From positions 1-37,265 of the forward strand of contig CAKZHE010000243.1 in the NCBI GenBank assembly GCA_936920195.1: a stretch of 37,265 nt of DNA, written 5' to 3'. This document shows, one piece after another, positions 339 through 32,600 of this stretch (the first letter of the stretch is position 1; each line of letters starts with the position of its first letter). Below the pieces are notes generated by a model. It did not search any database and was not told the DNA's origin. It was given only the letters and a program-made list of their open reading frames with translations. The position numbers and the translations under genes were made by a program. The stretch comes from an uncultured cyanobacterium (GTDB lineage: Bacteria > Cyanobacteriota > Cyanobacteriia > Cyanobacteriales > FACHB-T130).

Positions 339-2255
339 ATGGGAAAATCAATGCTTGTTTCTGATTTAAGCAAGAAAATATTTATATTTTCTTGCTTTGT
401 TCTAGTGTTATCCTTAATATATTTGCCTCAAATATCTAATGGATATGTTTATCATGATGATTACTATCTTTGGACTTGGGACAAAAAAAGCTGCTGGGAT
501 TACCCACTATCTGCATTTCCATTAATACTAGGACGGCCTATCCCAGCAATATTTCTATGCCTATCAGGAAAGCAAATTGAATATGTAAAAGATGTTGCTT
601 TATTTAGGTTTCTAAGCTTGATATTGATTGGTATTGTCTCAACTATTTTATACAACTGGTTAAAATTATTTAATGTCAAGCTGGTAATGAGATGGTTGTT
701 TTGCTTGGCAATTATAACTTTGCCAAGTTTTCAATTTTATGCAGGTGGTTTTGCAGTAACTGCTCCTTATATGCCCTTTGGTATAATGCTCTCAGTTGGT
801 GCAGCAATGATTTTGTGGCAGCCAGTTTTTGAGCCTGAGAGATTTAAAATTACTAATAATAAGTTTAAAATAATCCTAGCATTATTAATGTTAACCATAT
901 CTTTTCTTTCTTATCAAGCTAATGCTTTTTATTTTATGTCATTAGTTTCAGTGCCGATTCTCCAGAAAAAAATTAGCAAAATCTCAGAATTGAAAAGATT
1001 TATAATATATTATTATTCAGTTTTTGCTTCTGCACTTATAATACACACTGGCATATTTAAACTTTTCTTATATTTTACTTTAAAAGGTAAAGAAACAAAC
1101 CAAATTCCTTATATAGGAGGTGTAGTAAAAGATATTTTTGGAAAATTAAAATGGTTTTTTTCAGAACCTTTTGTCAATGCTTTAAATTTATGGAACTTAT
1201 GGCCTTCAACTAAAGTTACTATTTTAGTTTTATTGGTAATTACTAGCGGTATATTTTTAGAAATAATTGAAGAATCATCTGAATTCAGCAAAGATAATAA
1301 ACCTAAAGCTATTATTATAAATTCTGGAATTAAATATGGTTTAATATTAAGCCTAATCCCTATCACATCCTTACTGAACTTAATTGTAGAAACAAATTTT
1401 CCTGTTTACAGAACAACCGGATCGCTTAGTACATTATTATTAATATTGTTTATATTTAGCCTTCAAAGATCTTTATATTGGATATTTGGGAATGTTTTTA
1501 AACTTTATCCTTTCAGACAAAAACTTGCGCTCATAACCACAGTTTTTGTGGTATCGTTAGGAGTATTAACAGCTAGCTACAACTCTCGCTACTTGTTTGC
1601 TGAAAATAGTGTTAAAGAGTTGAACTATATTGAACTAGAAATATCAAGGCATATATCCGAATATGGGAAGGAAAGTCTTTACCACATTCATGTTATTAGA
1701 CCCATAACTTCGATATTTTATAATTACCGTTACGATGAAATTGGTTCATCAACTACATCTTTCTGGCAAGATATTCCAGGAATAATTAGATGTGCAATGA
1801 AAGAATTGAGGATAGATACAAAATATATAAACAAAATAAAGATAACAAGTAGCTCCCCTAATACAAATACTCAAGTAGTAGACGATCAGAAAATACCTAA
1901 AGATCCAATTGCTCTGATTATTGATATGAATAATCCGCTAGCCGCGAGATTAATGAAAGAAGATGATATTAATCAATTGTTAAATCTAGAAACCATGAGA
2001 CTAAATCATCAGCGACTGAATACAGATAATACAGATAATACTGATGTATTTCCTCGTTTATTTCAATCAAACTATCTAGGATTTAATATTGTAATATATA
2101 AGAATGAATTCTATGCCTTAGCAATGTCGTTAGGATCTATCGACTTGATGACTGTGCCTCCATCTACTTTAAAAGATTGCCAGCAAAAACGTCAGTGTTT
2201 CGTTGCTAATTCTCTGAAAGACCTGAGACAAGTGATAAACAAACACTCTGAATAA
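339..2255 (+). CDS. polytopic GT-C-like glycosyltransferase (GtrII/ArnT-type topology)
   Basis: This is a 638-residue integral membrane protein with about ten hydrophobic segments in the first ~430 residues and a soluble C-terminal part of ~200 residues. The first predicted extracytoplasmic loop carries an acidic pair in YHDDYY (Asp40-Asp41), the position where GT-C enzymes of the GtrII type keep their catalytic or metal-binding aspartates. GT-C enzymes use polyprenyl-phosphate sugars as donors on the outer face of the membrane. The neighbours include a GtrB/ArnC-like donor synthase and a small flippase-like protein, which fits this role. ATG 339 has no Shine-Dalgarno sequence. ATG 351 has GGGA six bases upstream and may be the true start. 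The gene is AT-rich and lacks HIP1. Donor and acceptor are unknown. Confidence 0.65.
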   Translation: MGKSMLVSDLSKKIFIFSCFVLVLSLIYLPQISNGYVYHDDYYLWTWDKKSCWDYPLSAFPLILGRPIPAIFLCLSGKQIEYVKDVALFRFLSLILIGIVSTILYNWLKLFNVKLVMRWLFCLAIITLPSFQFYAGGFAVTAPYMPFGIMLSVGAAMILWQPVFEPERFKITNNKFKIILALLMLTISFLSYQANAFYFMSLVSVPILQKKISKISELKRFIIYYYSVFASALIIHTGIFKLFLYFTLKGKETNQIPYIGGVVKDIFGKLKWFFSEPFVNALNLWNLWPSTKVTILVLLVITSGIFLEIIEESSEFSKDNKPKAIIINSGIKYGLILSLIPITSLLNLIVETNFPVYRTTGSLSTLLLILFIFSLQRSLYWIFGNVFKLYPFRQKLALITTVFVVSLGVLTASYNSRYLFAENSVKELNYIELEISRHISEYGKESLYHIHVIRPITSIFYNYRYDEIGSSTTSFWQDIPGIIRCAMKELRIDTKYINKIKITSSSPNTNTQVVDDQKIPKDPIALIIDMNNPLAARLMKEDDINQLLNLETMRLNHQRLNTDNTDNTDVFPRLFQSNYLGFNIVIYKNEFYALAMSLGSIDLMTVPPSTLKDCQQKRQCFVANSLKDLRQVINKHSE

Positions 2256-2278: not shown

Positions 2279-3019
2279 ATGAAAGGAATAATTCTAGCTG
2301 GAGGGAGAGGTACTCGTTTAGCACCATTAACAGAGGTGACAAATAAGCATCTTTTGCCTGTGGGAAAAGAACCGATGATTTGGCATTCTGTTAAACAATT
2401 AGTTCTTTGCTGTGGCATTATGGAAATTTTGGTAGTTACTTCTACCCACCATATGGGAGATATAGTCAACTCCCTAGGTTCTGGTCAGCGATTTGGCTGT
2501 GAGTTCACTTACCGAGTTCAAGAAGAACCGAATGGGATCGCCAAAGCTCTTTTATTGGGCGAACAGTTTTCTCAAGATCAGCAAATTATTGTCCTGTTAG
2601 GGGATAATATTTTTGAGTATTCCATCAAACCCCATGTAGAAGCCTTTAAAAAACAGCAAATTGGTGCTAGGATATTGCTTAAGGAAGTGGGAGAACCAGA
2701 GAGATTTGGTGTTGCCGCTTTAGATGAAAAGCAAATAATTTCCATTGAGGAAAAACCCAAGCACCCTAACAGTAATTATGCTGTTGTTGGATGTTATATG
2801 TACGATTCTCAAGTATTTCAGTTGATTCGCAAACTTAATCGGTCACCAAGAGGAGAATTTGAAATTACGGAAGTGAACAATCTCTATATCGAACAAGGAG
2901 AATTACAATATAGTTTTGTGCAAGGTCAATGGATGGATGCCGGTACTTTTGAATCCTGGTATGAAGCTAACGAAATTTTGCTGGCAAATAACAATTTTAT
3001 TCTCCCACAACAAGAGTAG
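2279..3019 (+). CDS. rfbA: sugar-1-phosphate nucleotidyltransferase (RmlA-type, short form)
   Basis: Predicted to couple a sugar 1-phosphate (most likely glucose 1-phosphate) to dTTP, giving the dTDP-sugar used by RmlB in this cluster. The N-terminal signature GGRGTRLAPLT (residues 8-18) with Lys23 and LLPVGKEPM is the nucleotidyltransferase P-loop. LLGDNIFE holds Asp109 (metal), EEKP at 157-160 is the second family motif, and QWMDAGTF near residue 220 is also typical. At 246 residues it is shorter than classical RmlA (about 290), lacking the C-terminal helical part. Short members can have different nucleotide or sugar preference, so the dTDP-glucose call rests partly on the RmlB/WecE context. 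It starts 23 bases after the GT-C gene. Confidence 0.8.
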   Translation: MKGIILAGGRGTRLAPLTEVTNKHLLPVGKEPMIWHSVKQLVLCCGIMEILVVTSTHHMGDIVNSLGSGQRFGCEFTYRVQEEPNGIAKALLLGEQFSQDQQIIVLLGDNIFEYSIKPHVEAFKKQQIGARILLKEVGEPERFGVAALDEKQIISIEEKPKHPNSNYAVVGCYMYDSQVFQLIRKLNRSPRGEFEITEVNNLYIEQGELQYSFVQGQWMDAGTFESWYEANEILLANNNFILPQQE

Positions 3020-3051
3020 TAACCTGTTCGCAACACCTGTGTGGTAAAACA

Positions 3052-3993
3052 ATGCAATCAATTTCAGTAGTTATTCCTGTATATAAAGCCGAAGGCTGTT
3101 TGCATAAACTTTACAATCGACTGATAAATTCCTTGGAAACAATTACTGGCAACTTTGAGATTATTTTAGTTGAAGATTGCGGCGGCGATCGCTCCTGGGA
3201 AATCATTGGAGAGCTAGCAGAAAAAGATCAGAGAGTTAAAGGAATTCAATTTAGTCGCAATTTTGGTCAACATTATGCTATTACTGCCGGCATAGATCAT
3301 TGTAATGGCGATTGGGTAGTAATCATGGATTGTGATTTGCAAGATCTACCAGAAGAAATTCCGCACTTATACGCTAAAGCTTTAGAAGGTTACGATGTAG
3401 TTCTAGCTAAAAGAGTAAACCGCAAAGATTCACCAGTTAAAAAATTTAACTCCTGGTTGTTTTATAAGATATTTAATTATCTTGCTGATCTTAACTACGA
3501 CGGCAGTATAGGCAACTTTAGAATAATTTCCCAAAAAGTAGCAAAAAACTTTCGCCTTATGCGCGAACAATTGCGTTTTTTTGGTGGCTTAGTAGATTGG
3601 ATGGGATTTCCTACTACTAGTATTGAAGTGGAGCATGGGAGCAGATTAAATGGCAAAAGCACTTATACATTTCGCAAGTTATGGAATTTGGCAATGGATA
3701 CAATCATTGCTTATTCTGATAAGCCACTAAAAATAGCAATAAACCTAGGATTTATGATATCTTTATTCGCTTTCATCTATGGCGCATACATATTTTTCTT
3801 AGTATTGTTTCACGGTTCTCCTGTATCTGGGTGGAGCAGCCTTATCGTTTCCATCTATTTCTTAGGTGGAATCATTATTTCTATCCTGGGTATTATTGGA
3901 GTTTATCTAGGCAAAACATTTGACGAAACGAAAAAAAGACCACTCTATTTAATTAGAGGAACAGAAAATATATGGCAACCTCACAAAATATAA
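3052..3993 (+). CDS. GT2 polyprenyl-phosphate sugar transferase (GtrB/ArnC/DPM1-like)
   Basis: This 313-residue GT-A enzyme is followed by two membrane helices at about 228-252 and 264-287, the layout of GtrB, ArnC and bacterial DPM1 proteins. These move a sugar from a nucleotide donor onto undecaprenyl phosphate at the cytoplasmic face. Visible motifs are SVVIPVYKAE at the N-terminus, EDCGGDRSW, the DXD at Asp93-Asp95 in MDCDLQDLPEE, and the typical FGGLVDWMGF segment. The next gene overlaps its 3' end by 22 bases, so the two are translationally linked. ArnC acts on an N-modified 4-amino sugar, which matches the WecD/WecE genes next to it. Donor identity is inferred. A HIP1 octamer lies at 3185-3192. 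Confidence 0.85.
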   Translation: MQSISVVIPVYKAEGCLHKLYNRLINSLETITGNFEIILVEDCGGDRSWEIIGELAEKDQRVKGIQFSRNFGQHYAITAGIDHCNGDWVVIMDCDLQDLPEEIPHLYAKALEGYDVVLAKRVNRKDSPVKKFNSWLFYKIFNYLADLNYDGSIGNFRIISQKVAKNFRLMREQLRFFGGLVDWMGFPTTSIEVEHGSRLNGKSTYTFRKLWNLAMDTIIAYSDKPLKIAINLGFMISLFAFIYGAYIFFLVLFHGSPVSGWSSLIVSIYFLGGIIISILGIIGVYLGKTFDETKKRPLYLIRGTENIWQPHKI

Positions 3994-4721
3994 TACTAGA
4001 TAAAAATAATAGCTTTACTATTAGGGTAAATCCTTGGGATACCTCTGTATTTGAATTTACAGTCACCGAAGTTTTTGATCTTAATTATACAGATGAAAAA
4101 ATTATTTTTAAAGAAATTGATCGAATCAACTTGATTTTGTCTTCTCAATTATGCTGCTTGAGGCATAATAGTAAAGATATCAAAGCAAAAAAAAGTTTGT
4201 TGGCTAATGGATTTTATGTAGCCGAGAATTCTTTACAGGCTAATTTTAATTTAAAAAAAACTAAGACAAAAAAATATTTTGATTTTTATCTTGCAGAAAC
4301 TAAACAATTATCTGATTTGCAAGTAATTGCAGCCAGAGATTTTCATTACAGTAGATTTCATGAAGATCCATATATTGATATAGAGAAAGCAAAATTAAGA
4401 TATGTAAACTGGATAACTAGCTTGGTTGAAAGCGCTAATTGCTGGATTGCACAAAATCAAGAAGAAAAAATCATTGGTTTTTTTGCCTATACCGTTGATA
4501 GTGATATAATTAATATAAACATAGTGGGTATAAACTCGCTGTTTCAAGGATATGGCTTATTCTTTTTTTCTTCAATGATGGAGTTTCTCAAAGCGAGGGG
4601 TACAACAGCAAAAGCTAGATTTTCAGCAGGTAATACAGATGTATTAAATGTTTATGCAGGTTTAGGATTTACATTTAGTAATAGCTTAATTGATTACCAT
4701 AAATGGTATACTAAGCCTTAG
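3972..4721 (+). CDS. GNAT-fold N-acyltransferase, WecD-like (4-amino-4,6-dideoxyhexose N-acyltransferase)
   Basis: This 249-residue protein has the GNAT C-terminal pattern: IIGFFAYTV (strand 4), then GYGLFFFSSMMEFLK in the cofactor-binding loop region, then NVYAGLGF near the end. The segment AARDFHYSRFHEDPY (about 120-134) followed by RYVNWI resembles the SRF...W region of WecD, which N-acetylates dTDP-4-amino-4,6-dideoxygalactose in enterobacterial common antigen synthesis. The pairing with wecE supports this. The start ATG at 3972 lies inside the previous gene and has AGAGGAA upstream. An acyl carrier protein gene follows directly, so the acyl donor may be an acyl-ACP rather than acetyl-CoA (inference). 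The coding region is strongly AT-rich. Confidence 0.65.
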   Translation: MATSQNIILDKNNSFTIRVNPWDTSVFEFTVTEVFDLNYTDEKIIFKEIDRINLILSSQLCCLRHNSKDIKAKKSLLANGFYVAENSLQANFNLKKTKTKKYFDFYLAETKQLSDLQVIAARDFHYSRFHEDPYIDIEKAKLRYVNWITSLVESANCWIAQNQEEKIIGFFAYTVDSDIININIVGINSLFQGYGLFFFSSMMEFLKARGTTAKARFSAGNTDVLNVYAGLGFTFSNSLIDYHKWYTKP

Positions 4722-4750
4722 TTTTATCTTTTAATATGGGGAGAAAGTTA

Positions 4751-5038
4751 ATGCAAATTGCTGAAGATTTTATTTATCCGGCTATCGACAAAATTAGTTC
4801 TCGGAAATTTCCAAAATCACCAGAAATAAATTTGTCAGGCGAAAACTCAATTTTTGATTCTTGGGAGTTATTCGATTTAATTAGGGCGATTGAAGAACAA
4901 ATTGAAACCAAAACAGGTTTAAAAATAGCCGTTGCAAATGAAGACTCTCTTTCTCAAATAGATAGTCCTTTTGAGACAGTAGCTTCTTTAGAAAATTATA
5001 TTGCAAACCTCTTAGAAAAGCATCAAATGGTAGAGTGA
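4751..5038 (+). CDS. free-standing acyl carrier protein
   Basis: A small acidic protein of 95 residues from ATG 4751. FDSWELFDLIRAIEEQI matches the ACP phosphopantetheine site: the Asp-Ser pair is present (Ser37 from this start), the usual Leu after Ser is Trp, and helix II follows with LIRAIEEQI. ETVASLENYI near the C-terminus fits helix IV. I prefer ATG 4751 because GGGGAGAAAG lies just upstream of it, whereas ATG 4736 has no ribosome binding site and would encode that sequence. It lies 29 bases after a WecD-like acyltransferase and before WecE, so it probably carries an acyl group for the amino sugar. It is not in a fatty-acid synthesis context. A phosphopantetheinyl transferase would act in trans. 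Confidence 0.75.
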   Translation: MQIAEDFIYPAIDKISSRKFPKSPEINLSGENSIFDSWELFDLIRAIEEQIETKTGLKIAVANEDSLSQIDSPFETVASLENYIANLLEKHQMVE

Positions 5039-5049
5039 TAGAAGAGGAA

Positions 5050-5140
5050 TAAGCTGTTCACCATTTAAACCTCATATTTGTGGAAATGAAACTCTTTGCT
5101 AGTTGATCTAGCTTTTAAAATTTAAATGGTGAACAGCTTA
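5050..5140. mobile_element. MITE-like element with perfect 20-bp terminal inverted repeats
   Basis: TAAGCTGTTCACCATTTAAA at 5050-5069 is matched base for base by its reverse complement at 5121-5140, enclosing 51 bp of AT-rich sequence with no ORF. The outermost dinucleotide at both ends is TA, as for IS630/Tc1-mariner-type elements, but TA is self-complementary so this is weak evidence. It lies between the ACP gene and wecE and could also act as a terminator or processing hairpin within the transcript. Confidence 0.6.
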
Positions 5141-5182
5141 ACTCTTTAATATTAGTTGCAGAAATTTAGGAAACTGCTGGTG

Positions 5183-6328
5183 ATGACTAAAATTTCAATT
5201 CCCTTTAACAAGCCCTTTTATAGTGGCAAAGAACTTGAATATATCCAACAAGCTATTGATGGGGCTCATCTTTCCGGCAATGGTAAATTTACTAGCCAAT
5301 GCCACGCTTGGCTAGAAGCTAACATCGGCTGTCAGAAAGCACTTTTAACTCATTCCTGCACCGCTTCCTTAGAAATGGCAGCTATCCTCGCTAATATCCA
5401 GTCTGGGGATGAAGTGATTATGCCTTCTTATACTTTTGTGTCTACAGCTAATGCCTTTGTATTGCGTGGTGGTATTCCAGTTTTTGTCGATATCCGTGCT
5501 GATACTCTAAATATTGATGAGTCTAAAATAGAAGCAGCAATTACCTCTAAAACTAAAGCAATTGTTCCGGTACATTATGCTGGCGTAGGGTGTAATATGA
5601 CAGCGATCGCCTCTATTGCCCAGCACTACAAACTATTAGTAATTGAAGATGCTGCCCAAGGTATATATTCAACTTATCGTGGGCAACCCCTAGGCAGCAT
5701 TGGACAGTTAGCAGCCCTCAGTTTCCACGAAACTAAAAATATTATTTGTGGCGAAGGTGGTGCTTTACTGATTAACGACCCCGACTACATTTCTAGATCT
5801 GAAATTATCCGCGAAAAAGGCACAAATCGCAGCCAGTTTTTTCTAGGTCAAGTGGATAAATACACTTGGGTAGATATTGGCTCTTCTTATTTGCCCAGCG
5901 AAATTAATGCCGCTTTTTTATGGGCGCAATTGGAAGCATCAGAAACAATAACTTACCAGAGACTGAGTATATGGCAGAACTATTATCAAGCCTTTGCAGA
6001 TTTAGAAACTGTCGGCAAAGTCTGCCGTCCGATCATTCCAGAGGAATGTCAGCATAACGGCCACATATTCTATTTAATTTTGCCAGACTTAAACACCCGT
6101 ACTGCTCTGATCGAAAAATTAAAACTAGCTGGTATTAACGCGCCCTTCCACTATGTACCCCTCCATTCATCTCCTGCTGGCAGGAAATATGGCAAAACTA
6201 GTGGCAGTTTATTAGTGACGGAAGATTTAAGCGATCGCTTAGTCCGCCTCCCTCTTTACAATAACTTATCCTCTGTAGACCAACAATTGATTATTGATTT
6301 AGTTCAAGATTTTCTGATTCAGCAATAA
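5183..6328 (+). CDS. wecE: dTDP-4-amino-4,6-dideoxygalactose transaminase
   Basis: PLP-dependent aminotransferase of the DegT/DnrJ/EryC1 family. It converts dTDP-4-keto-6-deoxyglucose (product of RmlB) to dTDP-4-amino-4,6-dideoxygalactose with glutamate as amino donor. Very close to WecE along its length: HSCTASLEMAA, GDEVIMPSYTFVSTANAFV, PVHYAGV, IEDAAQG, FHETKN with the PLP lysine before CGEGGA, IREKGTNRSQFF and VDKYTW are all present. From ATG 5183 it has 381 residues, the normal length, and begins IPFNKP as expected. A TTG at 5156 would only add a tail without family match. It overlaps the end of the convergent rfbB by 10 bases. HIP1 lies at 5603-5610. Confidence 0.93.
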   Translation: MTKISIPFNKPFYSGKELEYIQQAIDGAHLSGNGKFTSQCHAWLEANIGCQKALLTHSCTASLEMAAILANIQSGDEVIMPSYTFVSTANAFVLRGGIPVFVDIRADTLNIDESKIEAAITSKTKAIVPVHYAGVGCNMTAIASIAQHYKLLVIEDAAQGIYSTYRGQPLGSIGQLAALSFHETKNIICGEGGALLINDPDYISRSEIIREKGTNRSQFFLGQVDKYTWVDIGSSYLPSEINAAFLWAQLEASETITYQRLSIWQNYYQAFADLETVGKVCRPIIPEECQHNGHIFYLILPDLNTRTALIEKLKLAGINAPFHYVPLHSSPAGRKYGKTSGSLLVTEDLSDRLVRLPLYNNLSSVDQQLIIDLVQDFLIQQ

Positions 6329-7404
6329 TCTTGATATTCTGTTGATAGTAGCGGCATCCACCAGTCTTGGTGAGTTAGATACCAATCAACTGTTTGCCGC
6401 AATCCTTCCGCAAATGTAACCGATGGAGTCCAACCAAGTTCAGTTTTTATTTTATTACTATCAATAGCATAGCGACGATCGTGTCCCAATCGATCCTTGA
6501 CAAAAGTAATTAATTGATTACTAGGACGAACTGGTAATGATGGAGCTAATTCGTCTATTAACTGACAAAGCATATTAACTAAGTCAATATTTCTAACTTG
6601 ATTATTGCCACCAATATTATAAGTTTTACCTACTTTTCCTTGGTGAATCACGATATCTAACGCTGCACAATGATCGTTCACATATAACCAATCTCGAATA
6701 TTTTCTCCATCTCCGTAAACTGGCAGAGATTTGCCTCTTAAGATGTTAATACATATTAAGGGAATGAGCTTTTCAGGAAACTGATAGGAGCCATAATTGT
6801 TGGAACAATTAGTAATAATTGTTGGCAAGCCGTAAGTATGATGATAGGATCGAACTAAGTGATCGCTGCCTGCTTTGGATGCAGAATAAGGACTATTAGG
6901 AGCATAAGGGGTAGTTTCTGCAAAGGCTGGCTCGTTAGGTAACAGGCTACCGTAAACTTCATCGGTAGAGACATGAAGAAAAACGCCTTGGCGGGCAATT
7001 TGATTCCAGTGCTGGCGATAGGCTTCTAGTAGAGTAAAAGTTCCAACTATATTGGTTTGGATGAAAGTATCTGGCTCAACAATAGAGCGATCGACGTGGG
7101 ATTCAGCGGCAAAGTGGGCAATTGTATCAATATTTTCGACTTGTAATAGGCGATCTACTAGAGAGCGATCGCATATATTGCCTTGAACAAACTGAAAACC
7201 TTCTTTTCCCTCCAGATCTGCCAAATTACCCCGATTTCCGGCATAAGTTAAGGCATCAAGTACAATGATCCTGTCCGAGGGATAGCGATCGCGCCAATAC
7301 CGCACAAAATTTGAGCCGATAAATCCTGCGCCGCCAGTGACTAGCAACTGCCGAGGTTGGAAAATTTCATCTTTATTTATGCTGCTTTTCATTGGTTCAA
7401 CCAT
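6319..7404 (-). CDS. rfbB: dTDP-glucose 4,6-dehydratase (RmlB)
   Basis: Extended SDR enzyme that forms dTDP-4-keto-6-deoxyglucose, the substrate of WecE. The NAD motif TGGAGFIG is at 23-30, the catalytic Thr147-Asp148-Glu149 in VSTDEVYG, and YSASK gives Tyr173 and Lys177. VRSYHHTYGLP, NCSNNYG and PVYGDGENIRDWLYV follow, as in all RmlB proteins. 361 residues with a short unconserved leader; ATG 7390-7392 (Met5) is an alternative start. It is encoded opposite to its pathway partners, tail to tail with wecE and divergent from the small membrane protein at 7469, so its expression is separate. It holds several HIP1 sites. Confidence 0.95.
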   Translation of the reverse strand: MVEPMKSSINKDEIFQPRQLLVTGGAGFIGSNFVRYWRDRYPSDRIIVLDALTYAGNRGNLADLEGKEGFQFVQGNICDRSLVDRLLQVENIDTIAHFAAESHVDRSIVEPDTFIQTNIVGTFTLLEAYRQHWNQIARQGVFLHVSTDEVYGSLLPNEPAFAETTPYAPNSPYSASKAGSDHLVRSYHHTYGLPTIITNCSNNYGSYQFPEKLIPLICINILRGKSLPVYGDGENIRDWLYVNDHCAALDIVIHQGKVGKTYNIGGNNQVRNIDLVNMLCQLIDELAPSLPVRPSNQLITFVKDRLGHDRRYAIDSNKIKTELGWTPSVTFAEGLRQTVDWYLTHQDWWMPLLSTEYQDYC

Positions 7405-7468
7405 ATGTTACCATTAATTGAATGCTAGTCTTAAATCTACTTGCTGTAGTTCTTTGGGGAAATTATTA

Positions 7469-7831
7469 ATGGCTCATTTGTATATATTCATAACAATTTT
7501 TCTCACTGTCTACGGGCAAATTACGATCAAATGGCAGGTTAGTTTAGCAGGAATGCCTCCAATAGTTCCAAGCGAAAAATTATGGTTTATCCTAAAATTA
7601 CTACTCAATCCTTGGATTATTAGTGCATTATTAGCTGCTTTTCTAGCATCATTATCCTGGATGGGGGCAATGTCTAAATTTTCCCTCAGCTATGCTTATC
7701 CATTTACTGGCATGACCTTCATCCTGGTAATCATTGGCAGTGCAATTTTTTTACATGAAAGCATTACGTTCCCTAAGCTAATAGCAATGTTTTTGATTGT
7801 ATCCGGAATAGTCATAGGAAGTAAAGGATGA
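7469..7831 (+). CDS. four-helix SMR/EamA-type membrane protein, ArnE-like flippase candidate
   Basis: From ATG 7469 this is a 120-residue protein with four hydrophobic segments (about 3-22, 48-68, 73-95 and 101-118). LTVYGQITIKW in helix 1 and the ending ESITFPKLIAMFLIVSGIVIGSK are typical of the small multidrug resistance/ArnE branch of the DMT superfamily. ArnE/ArnF flip undecaprenyl-phosphate-aminoarabinose. The neighbouring GtrB/ArnC-like and GT-C-like genes make a sugar-lipid flippase the best guess. GGGGA at 7456-7460 fits ATG 7469; the TTG at 7418 would add an unlikely cysteine-rich leader. Its stop codon lies within the leader of the next gene, so the two are cotranscribed. Drug efflux is a less likely alternative. 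Confidence 0.65.
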   Translation: MAHLYIFITIFLTVYGQITIKWQVSLAGMPPIVPSEKLWFILKLLLNPWIISALLAAFLASLSWMGAMSKFSLSYAYPFTGMTFILVIIGSAIFLHESITFPKLIAMFLIVSGIVIGSKG

Positions 7832-7834
7832 AAA

Positions 7835-8284
7835 ATGTTTTCTCAAAAAGTAGCCGATGACCGGACTAAAATCAGAGCGGGGGTAGGAGTGATCCTGCAA
7901 AACGCCCAAGGAGAGATTTTGCTAGAAAAAAGAAGCGATTGCGGGTGGTGGGGACTGCCTGGAGGGAGAATTGAAGCAGGGGAATCGGTTCTAGAAACCG
8001 CTTTGCGGGAAGTCAAAGAAGAAACTGGATTAGCGATCGCCATTACCAGTTTACTAGGTATTTATTCTGAACCAACCGATCGGATCGTCACCTATCCTGA
8101 TAATATAGTCCAGCTAGTGGATGTCATCCTAGTGGGAACAATTGTATCAGGCACGCTGTCTTGCAGCCACGAAAGCGAAGCTTTACAATTTTTTCAGCCA
8201 ACTGCCTTGCCTGCGGAGATTGTGCCACCTGCCTTGGCTCCCCTCCAGGATTTTATTAACGGACTGACTGGGATGATTCGGTGA
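7835..8284 (+). CDS. NUDIX hydrolase
   Basis: A 149-residue protein with a full NUDIX box at residues 44-66: GRIEAGE, then seven residues, then REVKEETGL, so the metal-binding glutamates are present. NUDIX enzymes cleave nucleoside diphosphates linked to another group, such as nucleotide sugars. WWGLPGG before the box and the generic C-terminus do not identify the substrate. AAAGGA six bases before ATG 7835 overlaps the end of the preceding gene, and the HddA-like kinase starts 14 bases after its stop, so the three genes form one tight transcript. A housekeeping or sugar-nucleotide turnover role in the locus is inferred. HIP1 at 8033-8040 is the last before a long HIP1-free stretch. Confidence 0.88.
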   Translation: MFSQKVADDRTKIRAGVGVILQNAQGEILLEKRSDCGWWGLPGGRIEAGESVLETALREVKEETGLAIAITSLLGIYSEPTDRIVTYPDNIVQLVDVILVGTIVSGTLSCSHESEALQFFQPTALPAEIVPPALAPLQDFINGLTGMIR

Positions 8285-8297
8285 CGAGGAACAATTG

Positions 8298-9359
8298 ATG
8301 ATTATTAGTAGAACCCCATATCGGATTTCATTTTTTGGCGGCGGCACCGACTATCCCGCCTGGTATCGCCGACATGGTGGTGCCGTTCTCGCCTCCACCA
8401 TCGATAAATACTGCTACCTCACTTGTCGTTATTTGCCGCCCTTTTTTGAGCATCGACTGCGGATTGTCTACTCCAAAATTGAAAGCTGCCACAACATCGA
8501 ACAAGTAGAACATCCTGCCGTCCGCGAAATTCTCCGCTACCTGAAGATTGACCGAGGACTAGAAATTCACCATGACGGCGACTTGCCTGCTCGGAGCGGT
8601 ATGGGTTCTAGTTCAGCTTTTACGGTAGGTTTATTGCACGCTATGTATGCGCTGCAAGGGCAAATGCCTGGAAAGCAGCAACTAGCCAAGGAAAGCATTC
8701 ACATCGAACAAGACCGTCTGGAAGAAACGGTTGGTTCTCAGGATCAAGTTTGTGCTGCCTACGGGGGATTGAATCATATTACCTTTTTACCCAACGGCGA
8801 AATTTCCGTTCGACCAGTGACGCTTTCCCGTCAAAGAATTTCTGAGTTGAGTTCCCACTTGATGCTGTTTTACACCGGGATTAAACGCACAGCTTCCAAC
8901 ATTGCCCAAAGCTACGTTCAAGACCTGCACACCCGCAAACGCCAGCTGCGGATTATGAAAGACTTAGTAGAAGAGAGTCTATCAATTCTGAGCAGCGGTC
9001 AAGACCTGATTCATTTTGGGGAACTGCTACATGAAGCTTGGCAAGCCAAACGAAGTTTGAGCGCTCAAGTCTCCAATTCAGAAGTAGACGATTTGTATTC
9101 CCAAGCCCAAGCTGCCGGAGCCATTGGTGGTAAACTTACTGGGGCAGGAGGGGGAGGCTTCCTATTATTGTTTGTTCCGCCAGAAAAGCAATCCGCAGTC
9201 AAAGCTCAACTGAATCAACTCATCCATGTCCCCTTTGAATTTGAATTTGCGGGCAGTCAAATCATCTTTTTTGACCAAGGAACAGATTACTCTGCCGAAG
9301 AAAAAGCTCGCGACAATCAACCAATTGAAGCTTTTCGGGAATTAATCCCAAATTCATAA
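8298..9359 (+). CDS. hddA: GHMP sugar kinase, HddA-like (D-glycero-D-manno-heptose 7-phosphate kinase family)
   Basis: A 353-residue GHMP kinase. RTPYRISFFGGGTDYPAWY at residues 5-23 is the substrate-binding start typical of HddA, PARSGMGSSS (97-106) is the ATP-binding GHMP motif, and KLTGAGGGGF near 275-285 is the third motif. HddA phosphorylates C1 of D-glycero-D-manno-heptose 7-phosphate on the way to GDP-heptose. No isomerase (GmhA), phosphatase (GmhB) or guanylyltransferase (HddC) is in this window, so they may be elsewhere or the substrate may differ. GAGGA seven bases before ATG 8298 supports that start over TTG 8295. Base composition is more GC-rich than the genes at 339-5038. Confidence 0.8.
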   Translation: MIISRTPYRISFFGGGTDYPAWYRRHGGAVLASTIDKYCYLTCRYLPPFFEHRLRIVYSKIESCHNIEQVEHPAVREILRYLKIDRGLEIHHDGDLPARSGMGSSSAFTVGLLHAMYALQGQMPGKQQLAKESIHIEQDRLEETVGSQDQVCAAYGGLNHITFLPNGEISVRPVTLSRQRISELSSHLMLFYTGIKRTASNIAQSYVQDLHTRKRQLRIMKDLVEESLSILSSGQDLIHFGELLHEAWQAKRSLSAQVSNSEVDDLYSQAQAAGAIGGKLTGAGGGGFLLLFVPPEKQSAVKAQLNQLIHVPFEFEFAGSQIIFFDQGTDYSAEEKARDNQPIEAFRELIPNS

Positions 9360-10353: not shown

Positions 10354-11226
10354 GTGTTTTCAGTGAAGAATAAAACAGCCAATATGTCAATAGCCATTCC
10401 ATTGCTAGAAAAGAAAGCACGCCAGTTAAGGGCTACATGTGTTCAAATGGCTCACGATGGTAAAGAAGGTCATTTAAGTTCAGCATTAAGTTGTATGGAT
10501 CTACTCGTTGGACTCTATTACCATTGGCTGAGAATCGATCCTAAAAATCCTAAAGACCATAAGAGAGATCGCTTTATTTTCAGTAAAGGACACGCCTGCA
10601 CAGCTCTTTATGCTGTTATGGCAGATCGGGATTTTTTCCCCAAGAAATGGCTATATCGTTATGCTCAGAATGATTCGCCGTTACCAAATCATCCTTGTAA
10701 GCATTCGTTACCTCTACTAGAATGTTCTTCCGGGAGTTTAGGACATGGGCTTGGCATTGGAACTGGTATGGTTTATGGCTTAAGGCTTGATGGGGTTGAT
10801 GCTCGTACAGTTGTATTGATGAGTGATGGGGAATGCAATGAGGGAAGTGTTTGGGAAGCAGCAATGTTTGCTGCTGCCAATAAATTCGAGAATCTGCTGG
10901 CGATTGTTGATTACAACGGCGTTCAGGCGGTTGGGAGAAGCGATCAATTAATGGGATATACTTCACTAGAAGAAAAATTCAAAGCATTTGGGTGGAATGC
11001 CCTAACTATAAATGGGAATAATCTCAATGAAATAATTGCTGCTTTAGATACTTTTCCATTTGAAAAAGGTCGGCCTTCTGCTATTATTGCCAAAACTACA
11101 GCAGGTTCAGGAGTCCGCTTTATGGAAGATCAGGTGCTTTGGCATTATCGAGTGCCTTCAGACGAAGACCTAAAACTAGCTTTAGAGGAATTAAAAGAAG
11201 TCGCTATTCATTTAGAGGAAGTATAG
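10354..11226 (+). CDS. transketolase, N-terminal (TPP-binding) subunit
   Basis: A 290-residue half-transketolase. EGHLSSALSCMDLL (His40) and FSKGHACTALY (His80) are the N-terminal histidine motifs. SGSLGHGLGIG and the TPP motif MSDGECNEGSVWEA ending at Asn188 in VDYN are clear. It needs the C-terminal subunit encoded next to form the active site and moves a two-carbon ketol unit using thiamine diphosphate. GTG 10354 follows AGGAG at 10338-10342; ATG 10384 is another possible start. Split transketolases are common outside central metabolism, and the location between sugar-modifying genes points to a dedicated role, either supplying sedoheptulose 7-phosphate for heptose or adding a two-carbon branch to a keto-sugar. 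Confidence 0.88.
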   Translation: MFSVKNKTANMSIAIPLLEKKARQLRATCVQMAHDGKEGHLSSALSCMDLLVGLYYHWLRIDPKNPKDHKRDRFIFSKGHACTALYAVMADRDFFPKKWLYRYAQNDSPLPNHPCKHSLPLLECSSGSLGHGLGIGTGMVYGLRLDGVDARTVVLMSDGECNEGSVWEAAMFAAANKFENLLAIVDYNGVQAVGRSDQLMGYTSLEEKFKAFGWNALTINGNNLNEIIAALDTFPFEKGRPSAIIAKTTAGSGVRFMEDQVLWHYRVPSDEDLKLALEELKEVAIHLEEV

Positions 11227-11228
11227 TT

Positions 11229-12152
11229 ATGAGGAAAGCCTTTGTAGAGACCCTCACTCAAGTAGCGGCTGAAAATTCCCGCCTGATTTTCCTGACTGGA
11301 GATCTGGGATTTCAGGTTTTTGACAATTTCCGGGAACGCTTTAGTTCCCGCTATATAAATGTGGGAGTAGCTGAAGCTCAGATGATATGTGCCGCAGCAG
11401 GATTAGCGCTGGAGGGATGGCGTCCAGTTGCTTACTCAATCGCCTCTTTTGCTACAGCCAGAGCTTTTGAGCAAATCCGCATATCTGTAAGTTACCCTAA
11501 TCTGCCTATTCTTGTAGTAGGTGCAGGTGGAGGATATACCTATGCAGCCAGCGGGGTTACTCATCATGCGGCAGATGACCTAGCTCTGATGTCTATTTTG
11601 CCTGGAATGACAGTGGTAGCTCCAGGAGATAGCAATGAAGTAGCAGCTCTTTTGCCGGAGCTTTTACAACTTCCAGGCCCTTCCTATATCAGAATTGGTC
11701 GATATGGTGAGCCAAGCTACTATGCCAACGAACCTGCGGTATTAGGACGCGCCCGTCTCTTAAGAGACGGAGAACGTATTGCGCTTGTGAGTACAGGAGA
11801 TCTAGCTGTACCTGTGCTAGAAGCACTGGAAGTATTGAAAGCTGATGATATTTGGCCAATAGCTTACCAAATGCACACTGTTAAACCACTAGATACAACT
11901 ACTTTAGACCAATTATCCCAGCGGGTAGAAACAATTATTACAATTGAGGAACACCTACCATCTGGAGGATTGAGCGCTGCTGTTAATACGTGGCGAACTA
12001 CCTGTGAAAAGTCAATAAAATTACTTAGGCTTGGGCCAGTAGATGCCTTTGCCCTTGGCAATCTTGAGAGAAATGAGCTACGGCATCGGCTAGGATATGA
12101 TGCGGAGGCGATTGTCAAAACTGTTCGTTCGTTGTGGGACAAGTTAAAGTAA
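11229..12152 (+). CDS. transketolase, C-terminal (pyrimidine-binding) subunit
   Basis: This 307-residue protein pairs with the preceding gene. GVAEAQMICAAAG holds Glu49, the residue that activates the thiamine ring, and SFATARAFEQIR is the usual pyrimidine-domain motif. GGGYTYAASGVTHHAADDLALM and EEHLPSGGLSAAV belong to the PYR and C-terminal domains. ATG 11229 lies two bases after the stop of the first subunit. The frame stays open upstream to 11139, but that part overlaps the first subunit and is not coding. The combined 597 residues are somewhat shorter than a fused transketolase (about 660). Confidence 0.9.
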   Translation: MRKAFVETLTQVAAENSRLIFLTGDLGFQVFDNFRERFSSRYINVGVAEAQMICAAAGLALEGWRPVAYSIASFATARAFEQIRISVSYPNLPILVVGAGGGYTYAASGVTHHAADDLALMSILPGMTVVAPGDSNEVAALLPELLQLPGPSYIRIGRYGEPSYYANEPAVLGRARLLRDGERIALVSTGDLAVPVLEALEVLKADDIWPIAYQMHTVKPLDTTTLDQLSQRVETIITIEEHLPSGGLSAAVNTWRTTCEKSIKLLRLGPVDAFALGNLERNELRHRLGYDAEAIVKTVRSLWDKLK

Positions 12153-14209: not shown

Positions 14210-14323
14210 CTTTATCTCAAAAAGTAGTTTTGAAGAATGGTGAAACTAAAATGCTTTTAACAGTGATGTAGTGAGATACCCAACATAATTGGCATTTATC
14301 AAAAATCAGAGGAAATTAAGGCT

Positions 14324-15829
14324 ATGACTACACAAAAGAAACTGGATTTGGTACTTATTAATCCAGCTAATCGCAAGCAAATATATCAGTCACTCAGTTA
14401 TGAGTTAGCTGCTATTGAGCCACCAGTATGGGCAGGATTAATGGCAACTTTTGTACGCAAACAGAGATTTTCAGTTCAAATTATTGATGCAGCAGCAGAA
14501 AATTTTGACCCCCAAGAAACGGCTGACTACTTGGCAGAATTAAACCCAGTATTAACTGTGATTGTAGTTTATGGCCAGCAGCCTTCTGCGTCTACTCAAG
14601 TGATGCCAGGAGCAAGTGCAATTGCAACAACAATTAAACAGAGTTACCCAGACCAAAAAGTTCTCTTGGTAGGAGGTCACGTTGCTGCTTTGCCAGAGCG
14701 GTCCCTTAGAGAAGAAAATGCAGATTTTGTGGCAACTGGAGAGGGTTTATATACCATACTAGATCTGATACAAGCCTTAAAATCAGATCAGCCAAATTTC
14801 AGCAAAGTTCGGGGTTTATGGTATTGGGAAAATCAGCAAGTTAAATCAAACTCCAGCGCCCCCTTGCTCCAAGATCTAAAAGGTGAAATGCCAGGGATTG
14901 CGTGGGATCTACTGCCAATGGAAAAATATCGCGCCCACAACTGGCATTGCTTTGATGGCCTCCAGCGTCAGCCTTATGCTGCTCTTTATACTACTCTAGG
15001 TTGCCCTTATCATTGCAGTTTCTGCTGCATTCAAGCTCCCTTTAAAAGTGGGGAAAAGGAGTTAGGCTACAAAGAAATTACTAATAGCTATCGAAGTTGG
15101 AATCCAGAAGCTGTAATATCTGAAATAGACCTGCTAGTCAACAAATATGGGGTACGTAATCTTAAGATTGCAGATGAGATGTTTGTACTGAATCCCAAGC
15201 ATATATTGGGTATTTGTGACCTAATAATTGAACGCGGTTATGACTTGAATATGTGGGCTTATGCGAGGGTGGATACTGTAAAAGATGATATGCTGGATAA
15301 ACTTAAGCAGGCTGGTTTTAACTGGTTGGCTTTTGGAATTGAAGCAGCGAGCGATCGCGTGCGAGACGATGTTGATAAAGGGTTTGCCAAAGAGAAAATT
15401 AGTCAAACCCTGGAAAAAGTTAAGGCAGCAGGAATCCATATTGCTGCAAATTACATTTTTGGTTTGCCAGAAGACGATTTAGAAAGTATGGAAGCAACCT
15501 TAAAATTAGCGATTGAACTTAATACTGATTGGGCAAATTTTTATTCTGCAATGGCTTATCCTGGGTCGCAACTCTACGATCTCGCTGTTAAGGCAAACTG
15601 GAGATTGCCAGATACTTGGTCAGGTTATTCTCAGCATTCTGTAGATACTTTGCCCTTACCTACTAAATATCTTTCTGCCGCTGAAGTACTAGGTTTTCGA
15701 GATCGGGCTTTCCAAACATATTTCAAGCACCCTAATTACTTAGATATGATTGGGAAGAAATTTGGAAGCAAAACTGTACAGCATATTCAAGAAATGACAT
15801 CCCATAAGCTTAAAAGACAATATGCCTAA
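14324..15829 (+). CDS. B12-binding-domain radical SAM enzyme
   Basis: A 501-residue protein with an N-terminal Rossmann-like cobalamin-binding domain (about 1-150; VLLVGGHVAALPE and FVATGEG are typical) and a radical SAM domain from about 215. The cluster motif CPYHCSFC gives Cys227, Cys231 and Cys234, and GFNWLAFGIEAASDRVRDDV and NYIFGLPEDDLESM are later radical SAM features. Class B members often methylate unreactive carbons or phosphorus; others do ring or mutase chemistry. AGAGGAAA lies ahead of ATG 14324. The position after the ColD-like gene suggests C-methylation or another change to the sugar, but no substrate can be read from sequence. HIP1 at 15351-15358 ends the HIP1-free stretch. 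Confidence 0.85.
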   Translation: MTTQKKLDLVLINPANRKQIYQSLSYELAAIEPPVWAGLMATFVRKQRFSVQIIDAAAENFDPQETADYLAELNPVLTVIVVYGQQPSASTQVMPGASAIATTIKQSYPDQKVLLVGGHVAALPERSLREENADFVATGEGLYTILDLIQALKSDQPNFSKVRGLWYWENQQVKSNSSAPLLQDLKGEMPGIAWDLLPMEKYRAHNWHCFDGLQRQPYAALYTTLGCPYHCSFCCIQAPFKSGEKELGYKEITNSYRSWNPEAVISEIDLLVNKYGVRNLKIADEMFVLNPKHILGICDLIIERGYDLNMWAYARVDTVKDDMLDKLKQAGFNWLAFGIEAASDRVRDDVDKGFAKEKISQTLEKVKAAGIHIAANYIFGLPEDDLESMEATLKLAIELNTDWANFYSAMAYPGSQLYDLAVKANWRLPDTWSGYSQHSVDTLPLPTKYLSAAEVLGFRDRAFQTYFKHPNYLDMIGKKFGSKTVQHIQEMTSHKLKRQYA

Positions 15830-29688: not shown

Positions 29689-32600
29689 TTACCAAGGACT
29701 GCCAATCATGGTAAACCCACTCCAGTAATAAGGATGGGTAAGATTTCTGTCTCCCAGCCTAACCAATTCTGGCGGTAAGGGAAAGTTTCCTGATGGAGTA
29801 ATTAATTGTCCTCCTACTAACCGCACCTCACCCTTGAGCATTGCTACTTGCGTCTTTCGCAGGGCTTCGGCTTTAATGGGAGCGCGTTGCAATTCCTCAT
29901 AAAAAGTAGTCATCAGTGCCAAAGTTCCTACATCTGAAACATACCACAAACTGCCCATTGCTGACTTGACTCCTGCCATCACTGCTAACCCCGCAAACCC
30001 CAATTCTGCCTGCTCATCTCCGATGGCTGTGCGACAGGCACTTAAGACAAACAATTCTAGCGGAGGATCGTTTAATTGCAATTGCCGCAATTGATTGAGG
30101 GGCAATTTACTGTGATTAAACTGAATATAAGATTTACTAGCATCGCCAGATTTAAATTCCGCATGGGTAGCTAAATGGAGAATACCAAATGGTTGACTAG
30201 AGCGGGCAGATTGCAAATTTTCTAAAGTAAAATCGGAGTTGAGAAAAAACTTACCTTGCCACAACCGATTGGTAATTAAAGATAACTCTAATGGCACGGC
30301 AGGTAAAGGATTTTGCTCGGCAAATTTTTCCGATCCCATAGCTAGAATTTGCCGATCTTTCAAGCTGACATAGCGCTTGTCAGTCAAGGAGAAACTGGGA
30401 ATTAAAGCTACGCTATATTTTTCGACAATAAACTTTTGTCCATCGTGCATCGCCGCCATGGGAATAGAACGCAAACCTGCATCCATCACAAACAAAAGAT
30501 TATTAATTTTTTGTGCTTTTAAATCCTGTTCAATGGGAGTGATTATCCATTGATAAAGTTGTTGAGATGGAGCGAGATAGGCGCGAGGATAGCGGATATC
30601 TGTAACTTGGCGAAATTGTTGAATAACTGGCATAACTTGCGATCGCGTCACCCCTTCAATTCGCCTTTGAATAATTTTACCTTGGGAAGTAACTAGCACT
30701 ACTTCCAATTCATCTGTAGGCAACGCCTCTCGATTAGCTGCACCTACTCGTTCTTGTAAATTGCTCAAACCGCGCCGATTGAATTGCCAAAGAATTTCCC
30801 CTTTTTTGCCTTGATTGGGCTGGAAAAAGACATAGATTATGGCAGGTTTTAATCCTGTAAATTCTTCAATTTGGCGCAACTTATTTTGTGCTTCTGGCAG
30901 AGAAAAAGTATAGGTATCGCTCAATCCCAAGTAGGCGGCAAATAAGCTAGTAGAATTTTCTTCTATTTTAGTAACGCTCTCTTCAGCTAAATGTTCTGGG
31001 TCGGTTTTAATTAACGGTATCTCTAATTCTTTAGGAACAGGATTGGGAGAAATTTGAACCTCTTGCCCAATTTTAGTCAAGTCGATACTAATAATCTTAA
31101 TATTGCCTTCAGTATGGGTGAAGTAAAATGATTGTTGGGGAGCAACTGTATAATTGCCGCTAGTAATCGTTCCCGCTGTGCCATTAACAGTAGCATCGCC
31201 GACGATAAAGGGGATTAAACCATTACCGCCGTGACGAATGGTAATTGCCCCACCAGTTGTTCTGCCAGTGCTGGAAATGCTAGCATTGATATTATTGCGA
31301 TCGCGAAATGTCCCTGTTGCCTGAAAAAATTGCCCAGTGGTAATATCTACAGTGCCGCCGCTGCCGCTACCAAAACTTTGGGCATTAATCACGTTAGTAG
31401 CAATATTACCAGGCGCGGATAGAGCGATCGCGCCGCCATTGCCCCCGCGAGAGAAAATATTCAAATTTCCCGCAATAGTATTAATTGCCCCTTGGCTAGT
31501 TAGAGAAATAGTCCCGGCATTGCCATTACCATTATTAGCTGCCCAAAGATTGCTAAGAGCAGTAATATTGCCCCCAGCTTGGACTAAAACTGTCCCAGCA
31601 TTACCATTACCTGAAGTGCTGCGAGCCGAGGCATCCAAACTGTTAGTAGTAACATTACCAGAACTAGCAGTAATCTTGATAGTCCCCCCATTACCAACAT
31701 TATTCCCAAAGTCAGTTAAAGCGGCTAAAACTCCAGTATTAATATTGCCTTGGGTACTATCAATGGTAATATTGCCAGCATTACCAGAACTACTAGAAAT
31801 AGCTAAGATGTTGCTAGTAGTAATATTCCCAAGGGCAGATAAAGCGATCGCGCCACCATTTCCGGCCGCTGTTGTATCTAAAAGTCCCCCACTGGTATTG
31901 ATACTGCCGCTAGTGCTGGTCAGATTAATTGCCCTACCGCTATTAGTAATATTGCTAGTAGTAATATTTTGATTGGCTGTTAAATTAATCGTAGCATTAT
32001 CAGTACCAGTTAAAGTAAACCCGGTAGTATTGATGGAACCGAAATCGATAGGCGATCGCAGAGTTACCGGATCTTGAAAAGTAGTATTCCCCGCCAAACT
32101 AATTGTGCCGCTACTATCAGTTCGACCAATGAAGATTTGGGAGAAGCCATTTTGAATCGCATTTAATTTGCTGGTATCCAAATTCAAACTTGCATCGGTG
32201 ACAGTGCCACCTACAGTAATTCCCAAGCTTGGAGTTATTGGTTGGATCTGAAGCATTCCAGATCCCTTAATTTGTGTAGTTCCAGTAATATACAATTCGT
32301 TGCTTTCCAGAGTTACCGTACCGCTACCCGCAGCAGTTGGATTAATCAAAGTGTCGTATAAATTGATGCCCTGATTGCTATTAACAGCGGTTCCAGTAAA
32401 AGTAATATTTCCAGAAGTCGATTGGACAACGCTGTTACTCCTTAACTCAATTCCCGGAGTATTAGTACCAGTAGCAATATTTTTACCAATAATTTGAATA
32501 TTACCGCTAGCAGAACTGATTGTAGAACTGCTATTAGTAAAAGTCCCGCTAGCACTTGAACCACCACCGCTAGTACCATCAAGAGTAATATTTCCGGTTC

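Follow-up and report, generated by a model that had tools for sequence, protein, structure and literature searches.

A gene for a putative acyl carrier protein (ACP) lies between the genes for a WecD-like N-acyltransferase of the GNAT superfamily and the sugar transaminase WecE in a contig of 37,265 nucleotides from an uncultured cyanobacterium (CAKZHE010000243.1, assembly GCA_936920195.1). This whole contig is referred to here as the window; it is contig C243 of genome G000, an assembly of 5.7 Mb in 326 contigs which is 95% complete. The genes belong to a run read in one direction, in the order GtrII, RmlA-like, PgfS/ArnC-like glycosyltransferase of family GT2, GNAT, ACP and WecE, with RmlB on the opposite strand and an ArnE/F-like gene after it. 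A first-pass annotation had described RmlA-type, RmlB, WecE and WecD-like GNAT genes with an ACP gene between acyltransferase and transaminase, which the list of open reading frames (ORFs) confirmed; the GT2 gene at 3052-3993 had been left unnamed there. From the analysis presented here we regard it as an evenly balanced proposition that the ACP supplies the GNAT with an acyl group by which deoxythymidine diphosphate (dTDP)-4-amino-4,6-dideoxyhexose is N-acylated, the sugar then being passed to polyprenyl-phosphate. The features of the locus are as follows.

339..2255, plus strand: GtrII-type membrane glycosyltransferase, likely the acceptor-side transferase (Pfam PF14264, 43.1 bits, above the cut-off of 30)
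2279..3019, plus strand: RmlA-like nucleotidyltransferase of 246 residues, with putative use of dTTP (PF00483, E 3.4e-59)
3052..3993, plus strand: PgfS/ArnC-like GT2 glycosyltransferase, likely a polyprenyl-phosphate sugar transferase (NF047588 and PRK10714, both under cut-off)
3972..4721, plus strand: WecD-like GNAT N-acyltransferase (PRK10975 under cut-off; profile match to WecD 2fs5)
4751..5038, plus strand: candidate acyl carrier protein of 95 residues with Asp36-Ser37 (relatives, AlphaFold2 model and Foldseek; start read from sequence)
5050..5140, no strand: inverted repeat with perfect 20-base arms separated by 51 bases, lying between the ACP and WecE genes
5183..6328, plus strand: WecE, dTDP-4-amino-4,6-dideoxyhexose transaminase (TIGR02379 and PRK11706, above cut-off; start read from sequence)
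6319..7404, minus strand: RmlB, dTDP-glucose 4,6-dehydratase (TIGR01181, above cut-off)
7418..7831, plus strand: SMR/EamA-type small membrane protein, ArnE/ArnF-like, likely a flippase (EamA and ArnF under cut-off)

The GT2 and GNAT ORFs overlap by 22 bases, and the ACP gene starts 29 bases past the GNAT stop codon. The preferred start in the ACP ORF (4736-5038) is the ATG at 4751, just 3' of GGGAGAAAGTTA, and that in the WecE ORF (5156-6328) is the ATG at 5183. The reading frame of the ACP is unbroken and keeps the Asp-Ser site, and as judged by eye from the sequence it has a ribosome-binding-like stretch of its own. The inverted repeat has an RNA fold z-score of -7.4 and one diverged copy in the genome (72%, at G000:C165:17202-17295), and its appearance is like that of a small mobile element.

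No match of the window ACP to the Pfam PP-binding model was found with the limit set at E 10, although most matches above about 0.1 are removed by the filters of HMMER. Four relatives (L121, L015, L084 and L118) were also without a PP-binding match at E <= 0.001, so that this ACP family seems to escape Pfam. The ACP has relatives in 5 of 385 other genomes of a phylum sample, in 11 of 387 other genomes of an order sample which overlaps the first, and at nine loci of a named genome collection, sampled thinly by a scan with one pattern. Asp36-Ser37 was invariant in two alignments of the ACP with its relatives, which also have a common NE...SQ..SPF stretch downstream. The AlphaFold2 model, with a mean predicted local distance difference test (pLDDT) value of 86, contained four helices (residues 3-15, 37-55, 64-68 and 77-94), the second of which begins at Ser37, so that the Asp-Ser attachment site falls where helix II starts. 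The best Foldseek match of this model was the acyl carrier protein 1x3o (template modelling score 0.60, weak E of 0.098); of the best six matches, all at E >= 0.098, four have titles naming an ACP and one more entry includes an ACP. Searches of the PDB with the single ACP sequence returned chance matches only, and an ACP profile returned three weak matches at E <= 1 (E 0.065-0.61), two to named ACPs and one to an uncharacterized protein. Taken with the gene order, the alignments and predicted fold agree with the first-pass description of an ACP with an Asp-Ser site between acyltransferase and transaminase, and we infer that the gene encodes a working carrier protein. A chance ORF was considered and was ruled out by the relatives in other genomes of the order, the conserved Asp-Ser and the confidently predicted fold. 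Scans of viral contigs revealed no relative of either the GNAT or the ACP; tblastn searches of plasmids gave no match for the GNAT and three weak Rhizobium matches for the ACP.

The neighbourhoods of 15 loci carrying relatives of the ACP were then compared. Genes were labelled by BLAST to reference genes; for the WecE loci that are discussed below, some of these references were taken from the same loci, so that the labels there are descriptive and not blind. Overlapping ORFs, such as that of the SMR protein in L007/L022, are skipped by the greedy gene caller. In 13 of the 15 loci the ACP is followed by a ketoreductase about 0.5 kb downstream and by an AMP-ligase about 1.5-2.4 kb downstream, a count which takes in close relatives (L014, L015, L016, L122 and L168 as one group, L118-L120 as another). 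A DegT-type aminotransferase was present within 9 kb in 13 of 15, although in L118-L120 only at 8.6-8.7 kb. The exceptions were L018, whose divergent ACP has neither the ketoreductase-ligase pair nor the aminotransferase, L122, with KASIII and an aminotransferase near the ACP and without ketoreductase or ligase, and L016, where the contig ends before any aminotransferase. KASIII genes were also present in some of the loci, and in the related loci L017 and L085 an ACP of this family was accompanied by a short GNAT, an FdtA-like gene and an aminotransferase (GNAT and FdtA of L017 by Pfam). Two of the nine loci from the named collection (L084, L085) are included in the 15; outside the count are L079 and L087, which resemble the others on reading, L080, L082, L083 and L086, whose contigs equal in length those of loci already included, and L081. 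Because its relatives sit with a ketoreductase, an AMP-ligase and a DegT aminotransferase, the ACP family appears to serve acylated amino sugars. The first-pass annotation had asked if the ACP gene might have unrelated neighbours in relatives; the 15-locus survey found amino-sugar loci instead, and the candidate explanation that the family belongs to loci unrelated to amino sugars was rejected. As a separate observation, one 190-residue ORF in L014 (9609-10181) fuses two ACP-like domains, each with Asp-Ser; an ORF of L122 equals it in length, and related genomes carry the two domains as separate genes.

To place the window among related sugar loci we used a set of 54 WecE loci, among them the window, which come from 53 genomes, G487 contributing two; 12 of the 53 other loci are shorter than 15 kb since the contig starts or ends there. 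WecE relatives were found in 29 of the 385 other phylum genomes (E <= 1e-100) and in 30 of the 387 other order genomes (E <= 1e-120). A GT2 gene of at least 55% identity was located within 9 kb of WecE at 13 of the 54 loci, and the 12 cassettes other than the window have GT2 proteins 68-75% and WecE proteins 60-72% identical to those of the window. An acyl- or formyltransferase-type gene was found in 12 of the 13, namely a GNAT in six (the window, L019, L021, L022, L147 and L148), a left-handed beta-helix (LbH) acyltransferase in five (L057, L121, L149, L156 and L167) and a formyltransferase in one (L146, gene 7509-8393, PF00551 above cut-off). L064, L066, L070 and L156 were kept out of the GNAT cassettes, their GNAT labels being weak (18-25% identity). 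The thirteenth locus, L056, had only WbqC. Since the gene varies among GNAT, LbH and formyltransferase types at these GT2-WecE loci, the acyltransferase slot of the cassette looks exchangeable. A relative of the small membrane protein was present within 9 kb of WecE in 12 of the 53 other loci, with 51-67% identity in 11 and 38% in one. Genes of the WbqC family were observed within 9 kb of WecE in 7 of the 54 loci (L053, L054, L056, L058, L071, L145 and L155; by Pfam in L054 only); WbqC may be one more acyl-slot enzyme, or may act at an adjacent step of sugar synthesis.

An ACP of the window family was found in two of the 54 WecE loci, the window and L121 of genome G667. The L121 order is GT2, LbH acyltransferase, ACP, ketoreductase, AMP-ligase, SMR protein, two methyltransferase-like genes and WecE, with identities to the window proteins of 73% for GT2, 40% for ACP, 59% for SMR and 62% for WecE; its ketoreductase and ligase were above their Pfam cut-offs and the Hexapep match, at 26.7 bits, was just under the cut-off of 27. 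The ACP gene of G667 directly follows the acyltransferase gene of the cassette. Thus, the ACP family is linked to this sugar cassette independently of the window, as seen once. Four of the 388 genomes of the order hold both ACP and WecE, and the two occur together in the window genome and G667; in G415 the ACP is apart from WecE, and in G423 WecE is at a contig edge with its upstream side unseen. The candidate that a GNAT and an ACP of the window family form a common unit was discarded, with 0 of 9 other GNAT loci carrying the ACP and the one of 53 other WecE loci which does carry it having no WecD-like GNAT.

The enzymes of the sugar pathway and its export were assigned to families with differing success. 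WecE scored above the curated cut-offs (TIGR02379, 604.5 bits vs 434.85; PRK11706, 616.1 vs 375) and its best PDB matches were 6blg and 4piw, closeness to which suggests that the product is probably the galacto isomer. RmlB also exceeded its cut-off (TIGR01181, 505.9 bits vs 365.1). The RmlA-like protein was under the curated cut-offs of its two best families (TIGR01208, 231.9 vs 320.25; TIGR01207, 230.5 vs 360.65), as were the GT2 protein (PgfS NF047588, 244.3 vs 500; ArnC type PRK10714, 174.6 vs 529) and the small membrane protein (EamA, 25.3 vs 28.2; ArnF, 28.8 vs 99, E 1.3e-6; ArnE, 24.4 vs 92). Despite scores below the cut-offs, these three and the GNAT are best placed in their NCBIfam families. 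The first-pass annotation had named a full pathway of RmlA type, RmlB, WecE and WecD-like GNAT; WecE and RmlB stood, whereas the RmlA-like protein remained below cut-off and the GNAT proved to be only a distant relative of WecD.

With the single GNAT sequence, the WecD equivalog models gave 39.6 bits against a cut-off of 219 (PRK10975/NF008212, E 5e-10) and 19 against 195.1 (TIGR02382), no Pfam model matched at E <= 0.001, and a search of the PDB returned chance matches with no GNAT at E <= 1. A profile built from the GNAT and five relatives matched the solved WecD structure 2fs5 almost from end to end (profile 6-229 on chain 17-230, E 8.5e-12), which was third of 154 matches by E-value, the two ranked above covering the C-terminal half only. 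Residues Y228, N221, R128-F129 and W147 were invariant in the six GNATs, and the Tyr, Arg-Phe and Trp positions could be aligned with WecD. Y228 shares an alignment column with a tyrosine of the 2fs5 chain which, from an 11-residue offset in chain numbering, would be the catalytic Y208 of WecD (PMC4964394). A search at E <= 1e-5 gave GNAT relatives in 4 of 291 other phylum genomes and 4 of 147 other relatives, with 25-33% identity over the matched parts; all three relatives tested passed the Acetyltransf_1 cut-off, a model to which the window GNAT gave no match. An alignment of the window GNAT with eight relatives (one, L148_14321, is truncated) gave 16-27% identity, against 68-75% for GT2 and 60-72% for WecE in the 12 other cassettes. 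In this alignment, position 6 of the P-loop, which binds coenzyme A (CoA), was A or G in 8 of 8 relatives, and was F with a two-residue gap in the window GNAT, which lacks the small residue found in the others. On this weak alignment the altered P-loop fits a changed donor.

Two further observations were made on GNAT relatives. In L020 a relative is flanked by genes for an AMP-ligase and a LuxE-type acyl-protein synthetase, and a 79-residue ORF about 1.6 kb away resembles an ACP on sequence reading only, Pfam finding nothing in it; this run (L020:7573-15961) also holds a split transketolase pair and ketoreductase-like and KASIII-like genes. In L148 (13374-14995) a WecE cassette contains two different WecD-like GNAT genes in close proximity; the second of them (14321-14995) is C-terminally truncated.

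In the proposed route, RmlB, a member of its family by score, and the RmlA-like protein, a putative member, would form dTDP-4-keto-6-deoxyglucose. WecE, whose family membership is established by score, would aminate C4 to give dTDP-4-amino-4,6-dideoxyhexose, probably in the galacto form, and the WecD-like GNAT would acylate the 4-amino group, for which the phosphopantetheine arm of the ACP encoded alongside, and not acetyl-CoA, would be the acyl donor. The PgfS/ArnC-like GT2 enzyme may then transfer the sugar to polyprenyl-phosphate, the SMR-type protein would flip the lipid-linked sugar across the membrane, and the GtrII-type enzyme, a member of its family by score, is predicted to pass it to a surface acceptor. 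Loading of the ACP would need an unlinked enzyme or the fatty acid pool, since there is no ligase or ketoreductase nearby. A switch of the GNAT donor to the ACP is plausible. We put forward a fuller version tentatively and hold it with less conviction than the ACP-fed route in general: a GNAT of the WecD family would have exchanged acetyl-CoA for a dedicated acyl-ACP as its donor, its P-loop being remodelled, and the exchangeable slot of a widespread polyprenyl-phosphate 4-amino-sugar cassette would thereby install a non-acetyl group from the acyl pool of the cell without a local ligase.

Several results weigh against an ACP-fed GNAT. The GNAT-ACP-WecE order, for which the first-pass annotation had proposed to look in other genomes, was found nowhere but in the window among the 54 WecE loci and nine other GNAT loci. 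An ACP of the window family was absent from all nine of the latter (the eight from the two genome samples and L060), and such GNATs seem able to do without it, because six of the nine (L019, L021, L022, L147, L148 and L060) also have WecE. In G667 the acyltransferase beside the ACP is an LbH protein and not a GNAT, the P-loop comparison rests on the low-identity alignment given above, and the structure prediction of the GNAT from its single sequence had a pLDDT of 36. No close homologue of the window ACP was found that would allow selection on it to be measured. The ketoreductase and AMP-ligase typical of relatives are absent beside the window ACP, so that it is not part of an ACP-ketoreductase-ligase module, and none of the 29 window proteins gave an AMP-binding or short-chain-dehydrogenase match at E <= 0.001; ketoreductases were searched for in the window only and the assembly is 95% complete, so the absence of partners holds for the window. 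The best AMP-ligase elsewhere in the genome, a stand-alone gene on C259, was only 29% identical. With the usual acyl-making enzymes missing from the window and no closer ligase than this, the non-acetyl nature of the acyl group in the first-pass claim of ACP delivery stays presumptive, while the association of the ACP family with sugar modification, the G667 cassette and the altered GNAT loop speak for the rest of it.

The same gaps are what would be expected if the ACP were the leftover of a G667-like ACP-ketoreductase-ligase module which has been partly lost, the GNAT using acetyl-CoA and the sugar being N-acetylated as in enterobacterial common antigen. The missing partner genes, the distant ligase, the GNAT loci lacking an ACP of this family and the mobile-element-like hairpin adjoining the ACP gene all fit such a history. 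Against it stand the intact frame of the ACP with an Asp-Ser site, its own ribosome-binding-like stretch and a confidently predicted fold, its start 29 bases past the GNAT stop, and the loop of the window GNAT, which differs from that of all eight relatives; we consider this explanation unlikely, yet the most serious competitor of an ACP-fed GNAT. It is more improbable still that the ACP, though active, works with a different acyltransferase or towards some other product of the 37-kb cluster, is loaded by an unlinked ligase and never meets the GNAT. In favour of this are the stand-alone AMP-ligase on C259 and the two of the four genomes with both genes in which the ACP is apart from WecE (G415 and G423, the latter with WecE at the contig edge), but in the window the operon has its ACP gene enclosed by those of GNAT and WecE, and that of G667 directly follows the acyltransferase of its cassette. 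That the carrier holds an amino acid or other non-fatty acyl group, the sugar becoming an aminoacyl or similar amide, is very improbable, for while the ACP substrate cannot be read from sequence and contigs C179 and C279 of the genome have large ORFs in which PP-binding matches occur together with AMP-ligase matches, as in nonribosomal peptide synthetase genes, the ACP relatives occur with a ketoreductase and at some loci KASIII, as expected for beta-hydroxyacyl chains.

Elsewhere in the genome, the region of C259 around the AMP-ligase (L104:4071-10711) appears to be a run of aromatic ammonia-lyase, AMP-ligase, thiamine diphosphate enzyme and KASIII genes, of which only the AMP-ligase was checked by Pfam. 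The window also contains a split transketolase pair (10354-12152) and, at 29689-34833 on the minus strand, a gene for a 1714-residue protein that has a TPS secretion domain at its N-terminus and a CHAT protease-like domain at its C-terminus.

If an ACP-fed GNAT does operate here, the N-acyl group of a surface amino sugar would depend on an enzyme slot whose occupant can be exchanged while the rest of the cyanobacterial cassette is conserved, and a GNAT occupying it could switch to an ACP donor. This would offer a small example, open to testing, of how members of the GNAT superfamily change donors. Unusual N-acyl sugars would then be predicted on cyanobacterial surfaces.

The window can be compared with several known systems. 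Within the cyanobacteria, the G667 cassette (L121) has relatives of GT2, SMR, WecE and ACP in one cassette as the window does, and differs in its LbH acyltransferase, in the presence of a ketoreductase and AMP-ligase and in the methyltransferase-like genes between SMR and WecE. The ArnC/ArnE/ArnF and Gtr or Pgf polyprenyl-phosphate systems resemble the window in having a GT2 enzyme, a small flippase-like protein and a membrane glycosyltransferase; they handle another sugar, and the window GT2 and SMR proteins are under the family cut-offs. An island for viosamine in Pseudomonas syringae reportedly combines an aminotransferase, an acyltransferase, an ACP and KASIII for N-(3-hydroxybutyryl) 4-amino-4,6-dideoxyglucose, and so differs from the window by its gluco sugar and its KASIII. 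E. coli WecD and WecE share with the window the transaminase family and, by profile, a GNAT of WecD layout. To our knowledge no ACP is involved in acylation by E. coli WecD. That enzyme, which acts in the synthesis of enterobacterial common antigen, uses acetyl-CoA as donor (PMC4964394), and the window GNAT is far under the cut-offs of the WecD models.

The first-pass annotation had called the arrangement unfamiliar. The gene order was indeed found only in the window, but ACP-fed N-acylation of sugars is already known as a kind, because close counterparts exist in the O-polysaccharide cluster of Flavobacterium psychrophilum (PMC6519341) and in enterobacterial flagellin glycosylation islands (PMC4875605). 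In the F. psychrophilum genes wfpC-wfpG the authors predict that the ACP WfpD feeds the PglD-type acyltransferase WfpG; the acyl group on the 4-amino position is 3,5-dihydroxyhexanoyl by nuclear magnetic resonance, the ACP route being the authors' prediction (PMC6519341). As in the window, a dedicated ACP is encoded next to an N-acyltransferase that is predicted to act on a nucleotide-linked 4-amino-6-deoxy sugar at its 4-amino group. Differences are that the sugar is UDP-Qui2NAc4N and not a dTDP sugar, the acyltransferase is of PglD type and not a GNAT, the cluster has its own ketoacyl-ACP synthases and reductase, and the product is an O-antigen and not a polyprenyl-phosphate monosaccharide (PMC6519341). 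The flagellin islands carry Acp, LuxE, LuxC, CaiC and FabG with DegT aminotransferases, and so resemble the ACP loci described here in joining an ACP and fatty-acid enzymes to DegT aminotransferases within glycan islands; they differ in that a liposugar component is suggested and that, in the portion of the source used, no WecD-ACP-WecE order is described (PMC4875605). In the open-access literature, judged by titles and the start of abstracts, no WecD-type GNAT with a dedicated ACP was recognised. What appears new in the window is that an ACP and a WecD-like GNAT are paired within an export cassette of WecE/GT2 type which has no loading enzymes close by.

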